64,000 nucleotides of DNA, taken from positions 18,658,722 to 18,722,721 of the forward strand of contig NC_053411.1 of NCBI RefSeq assembly GCF_016859285.1, written 5' to 3'. How positions within the stretch are numbered: the first letter of the stretch is position 1; each line of letters opens with the position of its first letter. Under the pieces are notes generated by a model, which searched no databases, had not been told where the DNA came from, and saw nothing but the letters and a program-made list of their open reading frames with translations. The position numbers were made by a program, and so were the translations under genes. Below are positions 15,979 to 40,814 of the stretch, in pieces. The DNA is from Xiphias gladius. Its lineage: Eukaryota; Chordata; Actinopteri; Istiophoriformes; Xiphiidae.

Positions 15979-16025
15979 TGACGAGACAAGCTAATGATTG
16001 ACTGGTGACCTCGTCCGCTATAAAG
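15979..16025 (+). promoter_or_regulatory. Promoter of CFI copy 1: conserved HNF1-like block and TATA box
   Basis: The block 15979-16009 recurs upstream of CFI copy 2 (28984-29014) with only two differences. Its core GCTAATGATTGAC matches the HNF1 consensus GTTAATNATTAAC except at two positions. A TATAAAG follows at 16019-16025, about 100 bp before the start codon at 16123. CFI is mainly a liver gene in vertebrates, so an HNF1-type site is plausible; function is inferred. Confidence 0.55.
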
Positions 16026-16122: not shown

Positions 16123-19100
16123 ATGACATCTCTTCCGCTGCCGCTTCTTCTCATCTCTCTCTCTCTCACGGTAAAAGTTAACGCCGCTCGTGCTCGTCGT
16201 CTCCGACACCTGCCCCTTTTTATCCCCCGACGGGCGAAACGCGTGAAAACCTTCCTCCGCCTGTTGGGGACCGTTCCGGTGTCTGTGTCGCGGCTCTTAC
16301 ACCAGCTACATCCCGGTGAAGCCGTGCGTCACCGGGGGTTGGATCCGAACGTGAACGAAACCTCCGCGACACGGCGTCAAACAGGTTCCGACCGGGCGGA
16401 CCGGGCGGATGTTCAGGACCGTGTCCGACCCTGAACATTACAACGCACTGCAGTCGAGAATCCCATGCTGTAGTTCGCGCCAGTGTACGGAGGCTGTGAT
16501 TGGCCAACCTCAACGATTCACTCGTTATCAGTAACGCTCGTGTTACTGAAATTATTACTGGATAATTAGCAGATGCAGTTAAACGAGTTCCTCATTTACA
16601 TGTTCATTTTTAAATGTGCGTAAGTTCAGCATTATTGTGCCACGTGACAACTCAGTTTGCATATTTAATGTATTAATTATTTGATAAAGTTTCTCTCAGA
16701 CAGTAAAACAGGCGTATTGACCTACTGTGAAGTTTGAGATTTAGACAGAAAATACACAACTCTGCTCCAACTCTGGCTTTTTTTTAGTTCCTTCATTCTT
16801 TGTCCCTCGCGGTTATAAATAAATCGCATCTATTCCATTGAAATTCTACTGTATTCTGCCACGTCCCTGCAGTTCTCAGCCCAAAGCTTCACCCCGAAGC
16901 CAGACGACTTTCTGGGACCAGTTGAGTGTCTCGAAAAGAAGTAAGTGCTCTGCTCTCTGATTGGCTGGACTCGTTTCTTTTTACATTTATCAAATGCACT
17001 GTGAAATCCGCTTTATTTTTTCATTTTTTCTTATTTACCAGGTTTACTCGTGACTCTTGTGACCTGGTGTTCTGTCCTCCGTGGCAGCGCTGCACGAACG
17101 GACGTTGCTCCTGCAAGCCGGGCTACCTATGTCCCGCGGAGGGCATGGTCCCAGTTTGCGGGCACAGCAACAGGCAGCTTAGGTCCTATTGCCAGGTAAC
17201 GACATGCACCATAGCCGCCGAGCAAGGCGCCGTCGTCGCCAGCCAGAGTCTCGGGTTGAATTCCCGCTGGCGCCGCTCTTACCAAAGATGTTAAGGTTTA
17301 AAAAGAACTCGTACCGGAGACTTCGCATACGTTGTCAATCAGCTTCTTAATGAGCGATGGAGTTGTCCACAATATATTCAGCAGAAGTCAGAATAATTGG
17401 TCATTAATAATAAGTTTTCCTCACATATGAAATTTTTGTTTTCGTCTGCGCTCTGGTTAAGTTCAGGTTTGAAAAAGTGGGAGTCGTCTTATATTCGAAG
17501 ATGAGACGATTACAAGTTGACAACATGAGATTTTCTCTCTGAATGGAGAGAGTTTCACCGTCTTCTGCGCCGAGTTTTGCTTTAGGCTTAGTGAGTCTTT
17601 CAGAGTCAGTGCTTTATGAGCCCAGTTTAATCTGCTGGAGCTCCTGAAGGCCGGTGTAACGTCCTTTTAAATAAATTAAAGACGGCTGAAAAAGGAGTTC
17701 GTAGCGTCTCCCGACGTCTTCGCCGCTGAAACGAACCAGTGAGGGAAAAAAATCTGTCAAACAGCCAAGAATCTCGGCTGTCTCAGACGACGAGCTCAGA
17801 AAGACGGAAGCCTGAAAAATAGCGTCAGAGAGAATGATTCTGACGACTGATAGACAAGACACACTGATGTGTGTTTACGTAAGAGAAAAGGCTTCAGTGA
17901 TGAGGACTCTCTTCACCTTGGATTAATGGGAGCTCAGGGAAAGTCTCCCAACAGGACGAGTGTCAAAGTGCTTCCTGTCCTCAAAGAGTAAGTTTCTCAA
18001 AAACAGATGTTGGAAAAGGGAGTTTGTCTTGTGTCGTCCTATATTCGGGCCAAAACAGTCTTATATTTGACACAAAGTTTTAGGGTCTTTAAAGAAGGGG
18101 GTTCCTTTATGTTTTCCAGATTTAATGCTTTCTCTGTTTATAAAGAGCGGCTTTACCCCACTGTTTTCACTGTTGTCACATATCCAGAAAAATTTCGACA
18201 TATCCTCTACACTGGACAAACACTGGGCCGGACTGTGCGATACAAGTCACAAATTCTTCAAAAGGTCACGTCAGGTCAAAGCTATTTAATCTATACGGCC
18301 CAAAATCACAATCCGGTAGTTTTCCTCAGAGGGCTTTTTACAGTCTGTACACCAGACAACGCCCTTTATCCTCAGATCCTAGATTAAGGTAAGGAAACCT
18401 TCCCGGACAGGATTACTGGATTTTCTGTGAAAAGTGTAGAAGAACTGTGGTTGTAATAAACACAATAGACCGTGACCACAATGGGAATCAGTTGGTAGTA
18501 CAATAAAGTAACTGTACATTAAGTTTACTAACTAGAAAATGTGGATTCTGTGTTAAATTACTCAGTGAATACATGCGCCACATTTAAAGCCCCTATATGC
18601 AGGATTTGAACATTTCAAACACTGGCTCCCACGAGTTATGGCATTAAAAATACTCTGGTCAAAGACTCAAAGAAGCAACAGGACACAACAACACGCGTTG
18701 CAATAAGCAGGGCTTCAGCTGCCTGCTGGGTTTCGGGCAGGATTCAAACCTGCTGTGGCAAGGCCTTAAAACGGAGGCAAAGTAGCAGCTGTTTCAGAGC
18801 CCGATAATCTACAGAAAACCGTGTACTATCAAACCACACTCGATTATGCATGAACCTGGAACACGCATGAATGAACAGACTGATCCTACACCCCGGCCGC
18901 AAAGCCTCCCATTTATTTAAAGATGGTCTCTTTTCTAGGCGATGGCCGTCTCCTGTCAGACCAGGGAACCCTTCATGTCCCACTTCGGAACAACCTGCAC
19001 AGGTCTGTGCTCAAACATATGCTGAAAATAAACAGACCTCGGTTATCTGCGGAGTTTTTCTAGGGTCCTCACGGTGCTTGATGACATCTTAACCTACGGG

Positions 19101-22100
19101 TTCACCACTGTTCTATTTCACTGCCATTTCAGCCGATCAGCCAAAGTTCAGAGGTTCCGTAGAGCCGGGCACGGGACTAGTGAGGCTCTTTGTTCCCGGC
19201 GCCGGGAGCTCTGGAGGAGGTGGGGAGGAGGTACTGGTGTGTGCGGAGCTGTGGGACATGGCCGCTGCCAACGTGGCCTGCAAGGAGGACGGACACCCGC
19301 TGTAAGAGAAGGAGGCGCCAGTCTCCTGAAATTTCATTCAATCGTGATAACGACGCCTGCGCTTCGATGTAATTGATCTCTTTTGCACGTGTGTACAGTG
19401 GCGCCGCGTCAGCTGGCACCACGCCGTACATCACCTCGGGTAATTTGCCGGGCAAATGTGTGAGCGTCCGTTGCCAAGGTTACGAGAACTCCCTGGCCGA
19501 ATGTGTGATCTACGACAAGGTCGGCATTGACAACGGGGACGTTGCTACGGCAACCTGTTATCAGCCACCAGGTGGGTAGTCAGCGCTCCTGCTCCCTTCC
19601 GTCCCGTCCTGTCATCAGTCTGACCTTTTGTGTACGTCTGTGCGTTTCAGACGAGGAGTGCGACTTCAGATGTGTGAACGGGAAGTGCGTGTCTCTCGGT
19701 CAGACGTGCGACGGCGTCGACGACTGTGGCGACCGAAGTGACGAGATGTGCTGCGAGGGTAAGACACGGAGACGATACACAGATACCGCGGAGTGACGGT
19801 CAGTCGAAGGCAGCTGGACTTGCTCTAAGATCTTGTGCCGGGCCTGGACTGGACTGGAAGAGGGGTCCAGGCATTTAACCTTGATGTGGCGAAAGACCTG
19901 GATACGGCGCCGCCAACCAGCCTTGGCTGCCGGGCCCGGTGGTCACTCGTGGTATTGCACACAAAAATAAAAAAATTCCTGCAACTGCAGACAGAGTTGG
20001 TAAACACTCTTTGTCTTCCGAATTTTTAATCCGCAGAGATTTTATGTTTGTAAAACTTTCCCAGAGACTAGAGAAGTGAGTTTTATCTTGGGGGGCGTCC
20101 TCCGAGTGTAACGTCTACGGGCTGAGCGGGATCGGGCGGCTGGGGCCGGCGCATGCGCAGTGGGACTGCACAGCCTGGAGGACAGAAAAGCTTTAGCAGT
20201 TTTCACTCAAGTGACCGGGCATCATCTTCGACTTCGGTATCCGGTTCTTATATCACATCCGCGATGTGAACTGGTCTGGAACTGGAAGGCGACTCAGTGC
20301 GGAACAGGTTTAAATGTCGTTTCCTGTGGACACGGAGGAAGACGCTTCGAATGAAACAGATCGTCTCAAACATACCGCATGACTGCCATGCGGACTGACA
20401 TCCCGAGTGTGACCTCGATGACCTTGCAGGAGTTAAACGCCGTCGACTCGGCGCCGGTCACTTAGAGCTGAAGAAGCTTTTCAAACAACGGGTGAAACGG
20501 GCGTCATTAAGAATCTACAGCGAGTCCGGCTGCCTTTGACTTAGCACTTAAAGGTCTCCTGTGACCTGGACGCCTGCCTTCGCAGACGTGACGCGTAACC
20601 ACACGTTAATGTCCCGCCTGTCGTAATGTGAGTTACCGTGTGTCTCCACGCATTCGTCAGGTTGCAGGAACGGGGCTTTCCGCTGCAGCACGGGTGTGTG
20701 TTTGCATAAAGAAGCCGTCGGTGACGGACTGATCGACTGCCTGGATGGCGAGGATGAATCAAAGAAACACACAAGTACCGACAACAGCCACACACGCACA
20801 CGCACACTTGCATGATATATTTAATTTTTGTTAAGCTAAACGTGCCAGAATCGTTCACCGAGTCCTACTCAAGTTTTTTATTTCTAGAAAAGGAAATGGG
20901 TCTTACACAGCGCAAGTATCCCAGAATGCCTCATTTTTGCAGTTGGGAACAAAACAAAGCCGTTTAACAGAAATCTGTTCATTTCCTACTGACCCATCAT
21001 TCACCAACAACCAGTGTTATGGATATGTAGCCACTGCTGGTCAAGATATCTGGACGCTGGGCCAAAGTGCTGAGCAGACTGATGAACGTGGACCAAAAGT
21101 TGCTCCACAGATGGCATATTGTTCTAAAGCAGAGCTGGAAGAAGCACTCAGACCTTACACCTAATTAAAGGGAGCAACACCACAGTGTGGAAATACTCCA
21201 CAGCACCACATTAAGTACTCACTATGTGTAATTGCTTGAAGTCCATTCATGCGGTGACTGCATTTTGGCCACTGGATGGCAGCATGGAGCGATTGGGGGA
21301 AATTGAATTTAGTATTTAAATCCTGATTTTTTTTTTTCTAATACATTTATTTTTGTATTCCTCGCAGAGCCAGAGACGTCGCTTCCTGTTCTCACGAACA
21401 CAGGTAACCGCGGTGACGCGCTCGCAGCCGCTGCGCTTCTTGTTACTATGGTAATGTGGTCACCACTGCGGCATCCCGGTCAGCGTCATGTTGATGATAC
21501 ATATCTCTCTGTTGTTTCTGTTTTCCAGAGTACACCTCTCCTAAAAATGGTATGTGGCTTTAACGGATGAATGATCACATGGTAAGTCGTGGTGAATATA
21601 TCGGCAGAAGCAGAGGTAACTTTACTTCAGCGCCCCCTTTGTCTGCGTTTCTAATCAGTATATAAACATTTAATAAACGATTTACAACAAATTGTACTAC
21701 AGTTATGAGCAGATTGAAGCATCGATTAATGTTTTTTTTTAATTGTAGATGACAATATAGTAAAATGGAGATGTAATAATATGTTTTCATTCGAGAAGTT
21801 ATTGCTCTTGACGAATAATGTACATGAATTAACACTTAAAAATGTCCTTATATCTGCTCATAACTACAGTATTGTGTGTTATAAACCTTTTATTAAAAGT
21901 TTATATACAGATTATAAATATTAAATAGGGGTGGCGGGTTAAAATAAAAGTGTTACCAACCTCGATCTCCCTGAAATCAGAGGTTTCCGGCCCTGAGGCC
22001 GTGGGCCTGTATTGGGTCTTGAACATCAAAGCCAGGGATTAAACCCATAATAACTGTACAAGTCAAGCGCTTATAGGCTCCTTTTGTGGTAGCTGAACTT

Positions 22101-25100
22101 GAACTCGGCACTTTTCCTCATCACCTCCGTCCCTGGTTGTCAGCGCAACAAAAACGTGACGACGAAATGTCGGGCACCGCTGCTTGAAATTCTTTTCTTT
22201 TCTACATTTTTACAAAACACATAATCTATTATATGTGATCTATATTAAAAATGATAATTGGATGATTGATACGACAAAAAAAAGGCTGGTAATAACCTCA
22301 CAGCAACAGGCCCCATTCTATATTAAAGAATATCTTCTCTCCCAGACGCTCTGTATGCGACCTATTCATATAAAGCCATTTTACACAATCCATTCTTTGA
22401 AACCAGACAAGGTGGAGTATTTCCAGTGACGTAGAATTATCCTACAACCAGTTATTACAGCAAGCTCATATGTTTTGACAATTTAGTACAGTTTTAATCC
22501 AAACAGACACAATGCAGGAGATTTGCTCAAGTGTCACCTTATTCAAAAAAAGATACAGTCTCCTTCCATGTGCTTTCTGCTTTTTCAGAGAAATTGAACA
22601 GATGGATGAGGATCCCCGCTTTGTTATCACATCTCTAGCATGAGTCATTGTCTCATAGAGTAATTTAGCTCATTGACAGGGAGCCCACTAACTTCTGCTG
22701 ATAATCTTCAGGTCGTTCAGATGAAGAAGTCTGCCAAGAAGCAACAAAGCTTTTCCAAGAGTCATCTGAGATTCCTTGGCCAATTCCCAACTAATGAGCA
22801 TCCCTGCCAATCTGGCCGACTCTATTTTAAATTTTAAACAAGTTTAAAAATAGTTTTTGACCGGAAAAAGAGAGAAATTTTCACGTGGACTTTGTTTTTA
22901 TGTCGAACTGTCAGTAGTAGTAGTTGTTTAAATGATGTTTCTGTGTAGAACTGAAGGCCACCAGAGCACATCTGGAGTCCCAGCTGTACTGTGGGGTTCC
23001 TAATACAAGCAGTTTGAATGATGATGATGATGAAGAGGAGCGAGGAAGAGCCAGGCGCTTCAGGAGGTTGGTGGGAGGACTGCCGACAAAACCGGTCAGT
23101 TACACATTTCATTATCTTTATTACCGCTTACAACGGGAAACCAGCCCGCTGGATCTGACAGTAAATTCCTTGTCTGTGTGCAGACTCAGATCCAGTGGCA
23201 GGTCGCCATAGAGGTGAACAGGAAGATTGACTGTGGAGGAGCTTATATCGGAGGCTGCTGGGTCATCACCGCCGCTCACTGCATCGGGTAGGACACGTGA
23301 AGTAGCGCTGGTGATGACAGCAGTAGTTGTAGTTGTACTCATGACCGGAGAAAAGTTGCAGTCACGCAGTCAGACATTGTAGAGGCAGGTTATTGTCGGA
23401 TTTAGAGCTGAAATGCTTGTTAGGTTAGACAACTAGACGTTTGACCGAAAATTAAATAAGAAGTTCTACAATCAGTTGATCATTTTAGTCACTTTTCAAT
23501 CAAAAAGGGAGTTTTATAGCATTGTAATCTGAATATCTTTGGGGTTTGGATTGTTGGTCACCCAAAACATTTTAAGCATTTGCACAGTCTTGCTTTAATT
23601 TGCGCCTTTCTCAACCAATCGCCACAATTAATGGATCAGAAATTCAACCTGTTAAAAATAAATGAGTAAAAATAAACAAATAAATAATAAAAATGAAAGT
23701 AAATAACAATAAAAGTGTCAGTACCCTGACAACAGTCGTTCTCCTCTCTCTCACCCCTTCTCTCTCTTCCAGACCCAACCCTTCTCTGTCAATAACAAAC
23801 ACTGGAGTTTCTGGTCAAGACGGCCAAGACAACACTAAGTAATGATCGATTTTTCTATGTAGTGAACAAAAAAGTTTCTTACTCTGCCATAACCTCTCTG
23901 TTTTGCACTGATAGTAATAGTCTCTCGCCCATTTATTTCCCCCAGGCCTAATCTTGCTGGGTTTATGGTGAAGTTTTCTCTCTGGCGGAGGAACAGAGCT
24001 CAGAGCTCAACAGACATCGTTCCTGTTCACAACATCCACATCCACCCCAAGTATGCATGCGTGTTTGTCCGTATGTGCAGTATGAACGATGGCGACGTGC
24101 CCCATATATCGTGTTGTGCTCTCGGGTTTTAACCCAGAAAAGGCCAGGTTTGGAAAGGCCTCTATGCTGGACCCGGTGGGACTTGAGTGGAGGTCTGTTC
24201 TATTTTGAGTTTGCTTTAGAATTAAGCTTTGAAGAAGGAGAATGAAATGCCACTTTTCTCTTGGAAAGGCCAGTATGTGGTTGCTTCACTTGTGATAGGA
24301 ATTTTTAAGAAGTTGCATCAATACATTTATCAGTGTTATATGGGAAAACTGGACAGTTTCTAACCTCGAGAGTGCAGCTCAAGATTTGGTAGAAGTCACC
24401 ACCCTGGTGAAGGCAGGATAGCTGAAAATACTTGGGAAATAAAGCCTGGTATGTTGGAGAAGAGTTGTGCGATGCACTTATTTTTTAGAGGCTAAAGAGG
24501 AAACACGTAAAAAGCAAAGATAAACTTCAAAAGGTTTTTGCCAGTGATTTTCTTGACAGGTTAAATGGCCCAACTCTAAATACTTTAGTACATGTGGGAA
24601 CGACGACATCAGATAAGTAAAGTAACGTATCATCAGCTTAGAGGGAGATTTGAAGAGATGTTCCTGATGGATGACCCACTGCTCAAAAATGTGATAAAAT
24701 GGCTCAAAAATAGAAAAAAACTAAAGGGGAAAATGGGGACATCCCTGTCTGGTTCTTTGTGGTGTAACAGAACAGAAACCTGCAGGTTTATCACAACAGA
24801 TATTCAGTATTTTTCAGTCATCGTAAACTAAATATTGCAAAGCATTGCTTCAGCCAAAGATGACAGCAATAATCTAAAACTGTAACCACATTGACCCCAA
24901 ACCCAAACCGACACTAACCATCTTTCCGTAATGTCTAACTCAACCACGGACTCGAATAAAGGTATAACCCCGTCACCCGTGAGAACGACATCGCTCTGGT
25001 GCAGCTGAAGAAACTTCCGATGACCGAGGAGTGTTTGATGAGCAACCCTGCGATCAGCCCTGTCTGTGTTCCCTGGACCACCAGGCTCTTCCATGCCAAC

Positions 25101-27068
25101 CACAGCTGTACCATCTCTGGATGGGGACAAAGCGCAGGTACAAGAGCTTGCCAGCATTAAATATGGTTCCGTGATGTGTACATGAGAAGTTATTAAGCCT
25201 TAAATAGAGGTATGCAAAATCAGTCAAATAGGCCCAAAACAGCTACCTCGGAAAGGGCTTAAGAAGCTCTCCCTCTCATCCATCACTAACAACTAGCTTG
25301 CCAGACTAATGTGGCCTATTGGTTAAGCTCTGTCTCTTCTCCTGTTTCCATGTGGGTATCTTGTATCTATTTGCAACATATGACAGAGAAAGAAAGTCAG
25401 AGAGAGAAAGAGAGAGAGAGTTTTATTACATTTGAAAATACTCCAACCGGTCAGGTTGCTGAACTCTAATGCTAATGTTCACTCAACATTTCCTCCTGTT
25501 GTCTCGATAAATGTCTCTTGTCTCTGTTGTTGTACGGATGTAGTACCGTGAAAATTGTGAAGTGAAAAGTGAAGAGTTATAGTTGTAAATATAAATATAA
25601 GTTATAAATTGTTCTGATATCCTAACAATAGTCCATTTTTTTTGTCTGTAGATGGTAGACTGTCTCAGGTCTTACAGTGGGCTAGCGTCTCCCTCATTGG
25701 AGACTGTCAGAGATTCCACAATGACAGCTTTAAACCTGGCATGATCTGCGCAGGTAGGTGTGGTCGTATCCTGGTGTCTTCTAGTGGGGGTCGTGTTTGA
25801 TATACTTACGAAAAGAAACCCTTTGCGGTTTGCTTTTGTGTGCAGGTGAACTGGACGGCAGCGTTGACGCCTGTCAGGGGGACGATGGAGGTCCACTGGT
25901 GTGTGAGGATGAATTAGGTGTTTCTTACCTGTGGGGCATCGTCAGCTGGGGGCAGGGATGTGGCCGGCCGAGATCTCCTGGAGTTTATACACAGGTGAAT
26001 TATTTAACATCAGCCTGGCAGTTTGACCAGATTGGTATCAAACATGGAACAGATATTCATGGTCCAAAGAGGTTGAACCATTGAAATATCGCCTCTTTCA
26101 GGTCAAAATATATATTCAACAGCCTAATTTAACCAAATTTGGAAAAATCTTTCCAGCACGTGAGCTCTGAATGGGCCGCCATATTTGGATCCTACATCCT
26201 TCGTTTTGTACATCCATCGGAATGATCTTTGTGTTTTCGGTGAATCTGTGACCTCTAGCGGCATTATGACGCCACTTTATACACATACTCTACTTGTACA
26301 CAAGAAATACATTAAAATGCAATCTGAGCACATTCATGCTTCCCAGAGGATGAACCCCACGAGCTTTCCTCTGTCTACCCCTCAGGAAAAAACATCAGCA
26401 TTGCACCAAAGAAAACATAATCAAATGTGGGGGTTGACATGGAATTTACTAATCAAATTCCAGCTTCCCAGAGGATAAGCATTGACATTGAATGTTGTAC
26501 AGATAATAATGTTCCCTCTGGATTAATTGTAGTAATTTATGTGATTTTCTGACTTTTCTTCTAGCGCCGCCCCGAGGTTGAAATTTTAATGTGTCCAATA
26601 CATTTGGTTTATGACCGAATACCTGCAACACTAATGACATTCCCACCAGCCTCAGCTGTACTTTGTGTTTACTGCTATTAAGCTAAACAAAGATGGAGAC
26701 AATAGTCTTACACTACTTAAAATCAGCATGTTAGCATTGTCGCTGTGAGCATGTTAGCACGCTAATGTTAGCATTACGCCTAAAACAACTCCGTGCCTCG
26801 GCGCAGCCTCGCAGAACCACTAGCACGGCTGTAGACTCTTAGTCTTGCCTCCTGTCAAACACTTTTGTATCAGAGAACCCAGTGACGTTTGTAGCCACAG
26901 GTTGACGCTAGCAGGACCTAAAGTCTTGTTTTCTAAAAAATGACGGTAAACCTATAAAAGTAATAATAATAATAACCCTGCTTCTGGTCTCTCTTCCAGG
27001 TTGCTCATTACTTCGAGTGGATCAGACTACATACAGGCTGGCCTGCGGTGACCAAGTTCAACTCCTAG
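16123..27068 (+). CDS. cfi: Complement factor I, copy 1, catalytic Ser replaced by Asp (probable pseudoprotease)
   Basis: Exons: 16123-16170, 16873-16940, 17042-17195, 18939-19002, 19133-19301, 19399-19571, 19651-19758, 20661-20774, 21368-21403, 21529-21549, 22949-23094, 23184-23287, optional 23773-23838, 23946-24050, 24962-25137, 25652-25753, 25846-25994 and 27000-27068 (TAG). The frame closes at 623 residues with the optional exon, 601 without. Order: signal peptide [21 protein letters not shown] (about 36-111, [12 protein letters not shown]); SRCR (about 115-225); LDLa1 ([12 protein letters not shown]) and LDLa2; acidic linker; RFRR cleavage site; trypsin-like domain from residue 359. Active factor I cleaves C3b and C4b with cofactors such as factor H, in plasma. 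Here His (TAAHC, codon 23277-23279) and Asp (ENDIAL, codon 24987-24989) are kept, but the Ser codon is GAT (25884-25886, QGDDGGP). The protease domain begins LVGG, not IVGG/VVGG. S1-pocket Asp (DACQGD) is intact. The exon at 24962 has a weak acceptor. No stop or frameshift is seen, so non-catalytic function is more likely than decay. Confidence 0.93.
17483..18047. repeat. Candidate interspersed element in CFI copy 1 intron 3
   Basis: The intron (17196-18938) has no coding homology. The 15-mers GTCGTCTTATATTCG (17483-17497) and GTCGTCCTATATTCG (18033-18047) bracket about 550 bp in direct orientation. The word GTCTTATATT recurs just after the second. Such motifs are frequent in vertebrate DNA-transposon relics. 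I cannot name the family. Confidence 0.4.
23773..23838 (+). other. Extra 66-nt in-frame cassette exon candidate in the CFI copy 1 protease domain
   Basis: It has a strong acceptor (pyrimidine-rich tract ending TCTCTCTTCCAG) and donor AA|GTAATG. It is in phase with both neighbours, so inclusion adds 22 residues ([20 protein letters not shown] region) and skipping keeps the frame. The next exon, 23946-24050, is 105 nt, exactly like its copy 2 counterpart 38130-38234. The 66-nt block therefore has no counterpart there. Its 5' end (ACCCAACCCTTCTCTG) resembles the 5' end of the copy 2 exon (ACCCAACCCCTCTGCG), suggesting partial exon duplication. Use in mRNA is unproven. Confidence 0.5.
26341..26847. 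repeat. Dispersed percomorph repeat (GTTAGCATG family) in CFI copy 1 intron 16
   Basis: Segments in order: CCCAGAGGATGAA, CTAGCGCCGCCCCGAGGTTG, TGACATTCCCACCAGCC, CAGCTGTACTTTGTGTTT, then GCATGTTAGCATTGTC repeats, ending CTGTAGACTCTTAGTCTTG. I recognise this order from a very abundant percomorph repeat. The remainder of the intron (26100-26340, 26848-26999) shows nothing further. Confidence 0.7.
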
Positions 27069-27257: not shown

Positions 27258-27263
27258 AATAAA
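27258..27263 (+). promoter_or_regulatory. Polyadenylation signal of CFI copy 1
   Basis: AATAAA lies 190 bp after the stop codon of CFI copy 1. It is the first canonical signal downstream. Confidence 0.7.
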
Positions 27264-28983: not shown

Positions 28984-29014
28984 TGACGAGACAAGCTAAT
29001 GATTGATTGATGAC
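28984..29014 (+). promoter_or_regulatory. Upstream block of CFI copy 2 shared with copy 1 (HNF1-like)
   Basis: This is the same roughly 31-bp block as 15979-16009, with two substitutions; its core is GCTAATGATTGAT. It sits 280 bp before the copy 2 start codon. The TATA box that follows the block by 10 bp in copy 1 has no match at that spacing here. A TATAAAG exists further on at 29114-29120. Confidence 0.5.

Positions 29015-29263: not shown

Positions 29264-40814
<11,551 letters not shown>

Follow-up and report, generated by a model that had tools for sequence, protein, structure and literature searches.

Tandem complement factor I genes in Xiphias gladius, one with aspartate in place of the catalytic serine: a possible non-cleaving competitor of its neighbour

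Two adjoining factor I genes

The window analysed here is a stretch of 64,000 nt from Xiphias gladius contig NC_053411.1 (18,658,722-18,722,721), taken from a single assembly (GCF_016859285.1, 690.8 Mb). It contains two adjoining genes for complement factor I (CFI), the enzyme central to the cofactor-dependent inactivation of C3b in plasma. Both are on the forward strand. Copy 1 (16123-27068) is a complete gene with 18 modelled exons and an open frame of 623 amino acids; copy 2 (29264-40814) has 16 modelled exons, 629 amino acids and a complete catalytic triad, with the serine in GDSGGP. Exon boundaries and start codons were assigned by reading the sequence and comparing the two copies; where copy 2 exon 2 begins is uncertain. 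The proteins are 65% identical (384 of 591 aligned residues).

From the N to the C terminus, copy 1 consists of a signal-like N terminus, a FIMAC/Kazal region, an SRCR domain, two LDLa domains, a furin-type site (RFRR/LVGG), and a trypsin domain. Pfam finds FIMAC, Kazal, SRCR, LDLa (two stretches), and trypsin domains in both copies; in copy 1 the matches, each above its cut-off, are to CFAI_FIMAC_N, Kazal_CFAI, SRCR, Ldl_recept_a (two stretches), and Trypsin, and they follow the domain order of factor I. The trypsin domain scores 178.4 bits in copy 1 vs. 193.0 in copy 2. The top PDB match of each copy is human factor I. For the whole copy 1 protein, the factor I chains 2xrc_A (391.7 bits) and 9b3h_A (390.9 bits) are followed, outside factor I, by LRP2 chains at no more than 208.9 bits (the best stretch being the LDLa region); matches to other proteases reach at most 148 bits. 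The dibasic (RRKR-type) site before the trypsin domain reads RFRR/LVGG in copy 1 and RFKR/VVGG in copy 2, and the new N-terminal residue after cleavage would be Leu in copy 1 and Val in copy 2, compared to Ile in the human protein.

Frame disruption, loss of splice dinucleotides, and loss of introns, by which a pseudogene might be recognized, are all absent from copy 1, whose 18 exons are open and joined by GT-AG introns. A preliminary description of this DNA had reported a frame intact over about 600 residues, and all 623 codons are indeed open. It had also listed the accessory domains, the Asp of the triad, and the S1-pocket Asp as kept; the Pfam matches and the alignment agree.

Some features are peculiar to one copy. 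A 36-nt exon 9 (21368-21403), encoding 12 residues of the linker before the protease domain, is modelled in copy 1 alone, while exon 2 of copy 2 (30142-30260) encodes a Thr/Pro-rich stretch that copy 1 lacks; a ATCCAACAG repeat beside this stretch makes the exon 2 acceptor uncertain. Outside the two genes, a stop-to-stop frame at 4006-4563 matches Iml2/TTC39 (PF10300) and is likely an exon of a neighbouring gene; it was the only one with a Pfam match among 20 non-CFI frames picked from the 103 listed. An Rfam search of the 64-kb window at gathering thresholds gave no match.

Nearly all significant blastn matches between the two gene regions are exons. One of the others is a 31-bp block upstream of copy 1 (15979-16009, forward strand), identical at 29 of 31 positions to 28984-29014 upstream of copy 2 (E 5.7e-7) and conserved amid promoters that otherwise align poorly. 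It includes GCTAATGATTGAC, which resembles an HNF1 site with two mismatches to the consensus (copy 2 has three), and GCTAATGATTGA, similar to the palindrome of HNF1; the identity of the factor is a guess. Matches this good (up to two mismatches) are not rare, with 10 on one strand in 64 kb. A TATAAAG follows the block at 16019-16025, and an AATAAA poly(A) signal lies on the forward strand at 27258-27263, 189 nt after the stop codon of copy 1; copy 2, like copy 1, has TATAAA and AATAAA signals. A further non-exonic match, 77% identical, joins 21136-21201 in copy 1 intron 8 to 29606-29671 in copy 2 intron 1. These introns do not correspond, and the match is probably a dispersed repeat.

The catalytic serine codon and the protease exons

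The catalytic serine position of copy 1 (25884-25886) is occupied by GAT, encoding Asp565. It lies in exon 17 (25846-25994), which also encodes the S1-pocket Asp559 and Asp564. The context at 25878-25894 is GGG GAC GAT GGA GGT CC, vs. GGG GAC AGT GGC GGT CC at 39433-39449 in copy 2, where the serine codon is AGT (39439-39441); the aligned residue is Ser in copy 2 and in three PDB factor I chains. The preliminary reading of an Asp for the catalytic Ser is thus borne out in an open exon, and so is its argument that no single sequencing error would account for it: two adjacent bases of the codon differ, and the flanks are clean. Otherwise copy 1 retains His399, the catalytic Asp468, Asp559, Asp564, the furin-type site, and all domains. 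At eight positions of the trypsin domain it departs where copy 2 and both mammals in the alignment agree, and one of these, S565D, is catalytic. Copy 1 therefore lacks the complete His-Asp-Ser triad of an active enzyme and has the sequence features of an S1A serine pseudoprotease, namely a trypsin domain with a triad residue lost.

By the established chemistry of S1A enzymes, Asp at position 195 is close to certain to abolish catalysis, and we know of no S1A enzyme that works with Asp195. Human factor I in which this Ser is changed (S525A) is likewise without C3b-cleaving activity (PMC9832388).

A spare exon could in principle supply the serine. The unsplit pattern G-D-x-G-G-P occurs at two places in the window, one per copy (mean 0.02 in 100 shuffles), and a pattern search of the 64 kb gave no alternative unsplit GDSGGP exon for copy 1, so that no spare Ser exon is evident. 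In a search of the 690.8-Mb assembly with copy 1 exon 17, the only matches were the exon itself (100%) and its copy 2 counterpart (78%). With the copy 1 protein as query, no further factor I gene was found among the 71 candidates scored of 328, and the high-identity multi-exon matches among those 71 all fall inside the window. The exact pattern CxGDDGGP occurs at three places in the assembly, copy 1 included. The other two are in stop-to-stop frames of only 41 and 33 aa, which by eye do not resemble proteases, leaving copy 1 as the only evident S1A protease with this exact unsplit motif in the assembly. Relatives were also sought with exon 15 peptides: none appeared in 177 pattern matches of the copy 2 peptide in a genome-contig collection, or in 17 of the copy 1 peptide in viral contigs.

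Exon 12 of copy 1 (23184-23287, forward strand), which encodes the catalytic His399, is nearly identical to exon 12 of copy 2 (37370-37473). The blast match (23170-23294, 92%) ends near the exon edges. Among degenerate codons for the same residue, 1 of 29 differs in this exon vs. 114 of 330 elsewhere (Fisher p 0.0002, for an exon chosen post hoc from 17). In 20,000 codon shuffles no identical run was as long as the longest one observed, 66 nt. Exon 12 has probably been homogenised by gene conversion between the two copies, limited to the exon and its edges. The kept His, which had been counted as a sign of selection on copy 1, is then not independent evidence for it.

Exon 13 (23773-23838, forward strand) is modelled in copy 1 alone. 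Its 66 nt would add 22 residues in frame, in the loop after the His. Its donor is the weakest of the 32, and it has the same phase on both sides, so that skipping it would preserve the frame. It seems to derive from a duplicated exon 14 acceptor region, because the acceptor regions of copy 1 exons 13 and 14 (23773-23945) both match the acceptor of copy 2 exon 14.

Exon 15 (24962-25137, forward strand) encodes the catalytic Asp468, in NDIAL. All 32 modelled introns of the two copies are GT-AG, and to this extent the splice sites are kept, as had been claimed; however, the exon 15 acceptor (24942-24961, ..CGAATAAAG/G) has the lowest score of 32. It scores -4.92 vs. a mean of 7.55 (sd 4.33), the next lowest being copy 1 exon 8 at -0.30; these scores are relative, since the leave-one-out matrix draws on these two genes only (32 acceptors). 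It is 41% pyrimidines, a value otherwise found only at the uncertain acceptor of copy 2 exon 2. A branch-point-like CTAAC lies upstream, with its A at -24 and no intervening AG, so that the site could be used. Of two rival acceptors, that at 25085 (score 5.00) is in frame but would remove 41 residues, including the catalytic Asp, and that at 25005 would shift the frame. The preceding intron 14 is 911 nt long vs. 120 in copy 2 and contains a fragment of an interspersed repeat (about 24396-24487) with 10 further genome matches at 78-83%. A transposon was considered as the cause of the weak acceptor and rejected, the fragment being away from the 3′ end of the intron.

Constraint since the duplication

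Pairwise dN/dS between the copies, which averages both lineages, is 0.31-0.38 by four methods over 562 codons, with dS about 0.62-0.70; for the trypsin domain it is about 0.25-0.29. Relative rates were compared over the 517 gap-free columns of a four-sequence alignment that included two mammals, human factor I serving as outgroup. Copy 1 shows no acceleration: it has 25 changes of its own and copy 2 has 23 (p 0.77), a set of 48 informative changes with little power against a recent loss or a short neutral period. The trypsin domain alone gives 11 and 11, and omitting exon 12, with human alone (three-way columns), gives 26 and 22.

By exon, there is no clear excess in exon 15 (six changes specific to copy 1, four to copy 2). 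In exon 17, with the human outgroup, the Ser is the single change specific to copy 1, vs. five specific to copy 2; the substrate-facing exon of the dead copy is thus nearer to the human one than is that of the live copy. One of the five is at residue 593, Pro in copy 1 and Ala in copy 2, which by counting corresponds to human P553. The human variant P553S reduces complex formation to 65% (PMC9832388). The unchanged remainder of exon 17 in copy 1 fits a recent loss as well as it fits retained binding.

The open frame is more informative than the relative-rate test. Under simulated neutral point mutation, a 623-codon frame remained open in 48, 25, 3.4, and 0% of 500 runs at 0.01, 0.02, 0.05, and 0.1 changes per site, respectively. 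Divergence since the duplication is roughly 0.3 changes per site per lineage, and copy 1 therefore probably did not evolve neutrally over most of that time, but could have done so over the last few hundredths of changes per site. The pairwise dN/dS, the equal relative rates, and the open frame together support constraint on copy 1 since the duplication, in which the periods before and after the loss of the Ser are inseparable. The purifying selection put forward in the preliminary description holds in that sense, and is not tied to the period after the loss.

Possible roles of a factor I paralogue lacking the serine

The explanation we favour, with a probability somewhat short of even, is that copy 1 is a dead paralogue that binds complexes of C3b and cofactor and competes for them with copy 2. 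It would be translated, secreted, and cleavable by furin, yet unable to hydrolyse peptide bonds, with Asp in place of the nucleophile Ser195. Like the engineered human S525A, it would dock on C3b (or C4b) together with a cofactor such as factor H, and would hold the complex uncleaved in competition with copy 2. C3b would then be inactivated more slowly, and complement activation or C3b-cofactor binding at a surface would be prolonged, to an extent set by the ratio of copy 1 to copy 2 protein.

The present analysis contributes to this proposal the sequence, the complete architecture, the failure to find a further copy in the searches above, and the overall constraint since the duplication; that copy 1 is made, binds C3b (or C4b) alongside a cofactor, holds the complex uncleaved, and competes, we infer. 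In its favour are the open frame around GAT, the domains and kept residues, dN/dS, the relative rates, exon 17, the upstream block, the poly(A) signal, and the human precedent; against it is the exon 15 acceptor.

The precedent is close, copy 1 being a genome-encoded counterpart of S525A that has Asp where the mutant has Ala, and is our reason for favouring competition. S525A is reported to form stable C3b:FH:FI complexes that inhibit wild-type factor I, and the patient active-site mutant H380R is also inactive, binds C3b:FH, and competes (PMC9832388). The dominant-negative effect in the human system is modest, which counts against competition as the role of copy 1: S525A reduces cleavage by the wild type by 15% at equimolar amounts and by 20% at twofold excess (PMC9832388). 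Human I340T forms no ternary complex with FH1-4, yet retains C3b binding and inhibition (PMC9832388). Binding is thus sensitive to the new N-terminal position, although Leu for Ile, as in copy 1, is mild. The exon 13 insert may also disturb binding.

The main rival, which we regard as a serious possibility though somewhat less likely than competition, is that copy 1 is a nascent pseudogene: active until recently, it would have lost the Ser, the exon 15 acceptor, or both, and be drifting with few scars as yet. The exon 15 acceptor and the exon 13 donor, each the weakest of its 32, are in keeping with this, as is an exon 17 with no other copy-1-specific change relative to human, which is what a young loss would leave; and at 0.02 neutral changes per site a quarter of simulated frames are still free of stops. 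On the other hand, the 18 modelled exons contain no stop, frameshift, or lost GT/AG, exon 15 has no clear excess of changes, and an AGT ancestor could reach GAT only by two nonsynonymous changes, through an inactive Gly or Asn, or by one double-base mutation.

Haptoglobin and HGF make use of dead protease domains. It is conceivable, but improbable, that copy 1 too is kept for a role other than competing, as a ligand, carrier, or scaffold, or through its A-chain. Known serine pseudoproteases include ligands, cofactors, decoys, and scaffolds (PMC13194640), and the 22-residue insert modelled in copy 1 alone, which in sequence lies close to the active site, could form a new binding loop; however, the almost unchanged S1 pocket and exon 17 point to the original substrate, not to a new partner. 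Slightly less probable again is that GAT reflects a mistake in assembly or base calling, or a minor allele of a copy 1 that is otherwise active. The GAT call does come from one assembly, but the two adjacent differences are in a single codon of otherwise clean sequence, no alternative haplotig was seen among the assembly matches of exon 17, and GAT differs from copy 2, so that mis-joining with copy 2 is no explanation. Residual proteolysis, with Asp as nucleophile or activating a water, is very unlikely: His, Asp102, the Gly of GD(D)GG, and Asp194 are intact, but S525A and H380R abolish the activity of the human enzyme (PMC9832388).

If copy 1 does compete with copy 2, this would be a vertebrate with its own factor I antagonist, a tandem paralogue lacking only the catalytic Ser and acting as a dose-dependent brake on complement inactivation; that larger claim we consider doubtful. 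Copy 1 may act as a natural decoy for the working gene next to it, or may be a gene just starting to die. Fixed in the dead state, it would amount to nature's own test of whether a complement brake of this kind can be useful, and the two copies offer a pair of proteins for direct comparison of binding without cleavage. In humans, reduced factor I raises the risk of macular degeneration (PMC11277764), and catalytically dead variants behave as dominant negatives (PMC9832388).

Among known systems, the human S525A and H380R proteins are the closest, being the same protein with a catalytic residue lost and the rest intact, in which an uncleaved C3b:FH:FI complex competes with the wild type (PMC9832388). 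They are laboratory-made or rare disease alleles, while copy 1 is a separate gene, with Asp, beside a paralogue that looks active. Teleost factor I as described from grass carp, aligned with 13 other species, shares with copy 1 the FIMAC, SRCR, two LDLa, and trypsin domains and the dibasic site, but in that account His, Asp, and Ser are all highly conserved among the fish sequences; recombinant grass carp CFI reduces serum C3b (PMC9569754). The scabies mite SMIPP-S are, like copy 1, serine protease paralogues without catalysis, and they interfere with complement (PMC7815109); unlike it they are parasite gut proteins directed against the complement of the host, and are not factor I. Protein Z is a plasma pseudoprotease related to active coagulation enzymes, with a cofactor role (PMC5008636). 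Both the His and the Ser of its triad are unconserved (PMC5008636), so that unlike copy 1 it has also lost the His, and it differs further in belonging to coagulation and in its Gla/EGF architecture. A natural, genome-encoded factor I paralogue without the Ser was not found in our literature search. S1A pseudoproteases as such are already known.
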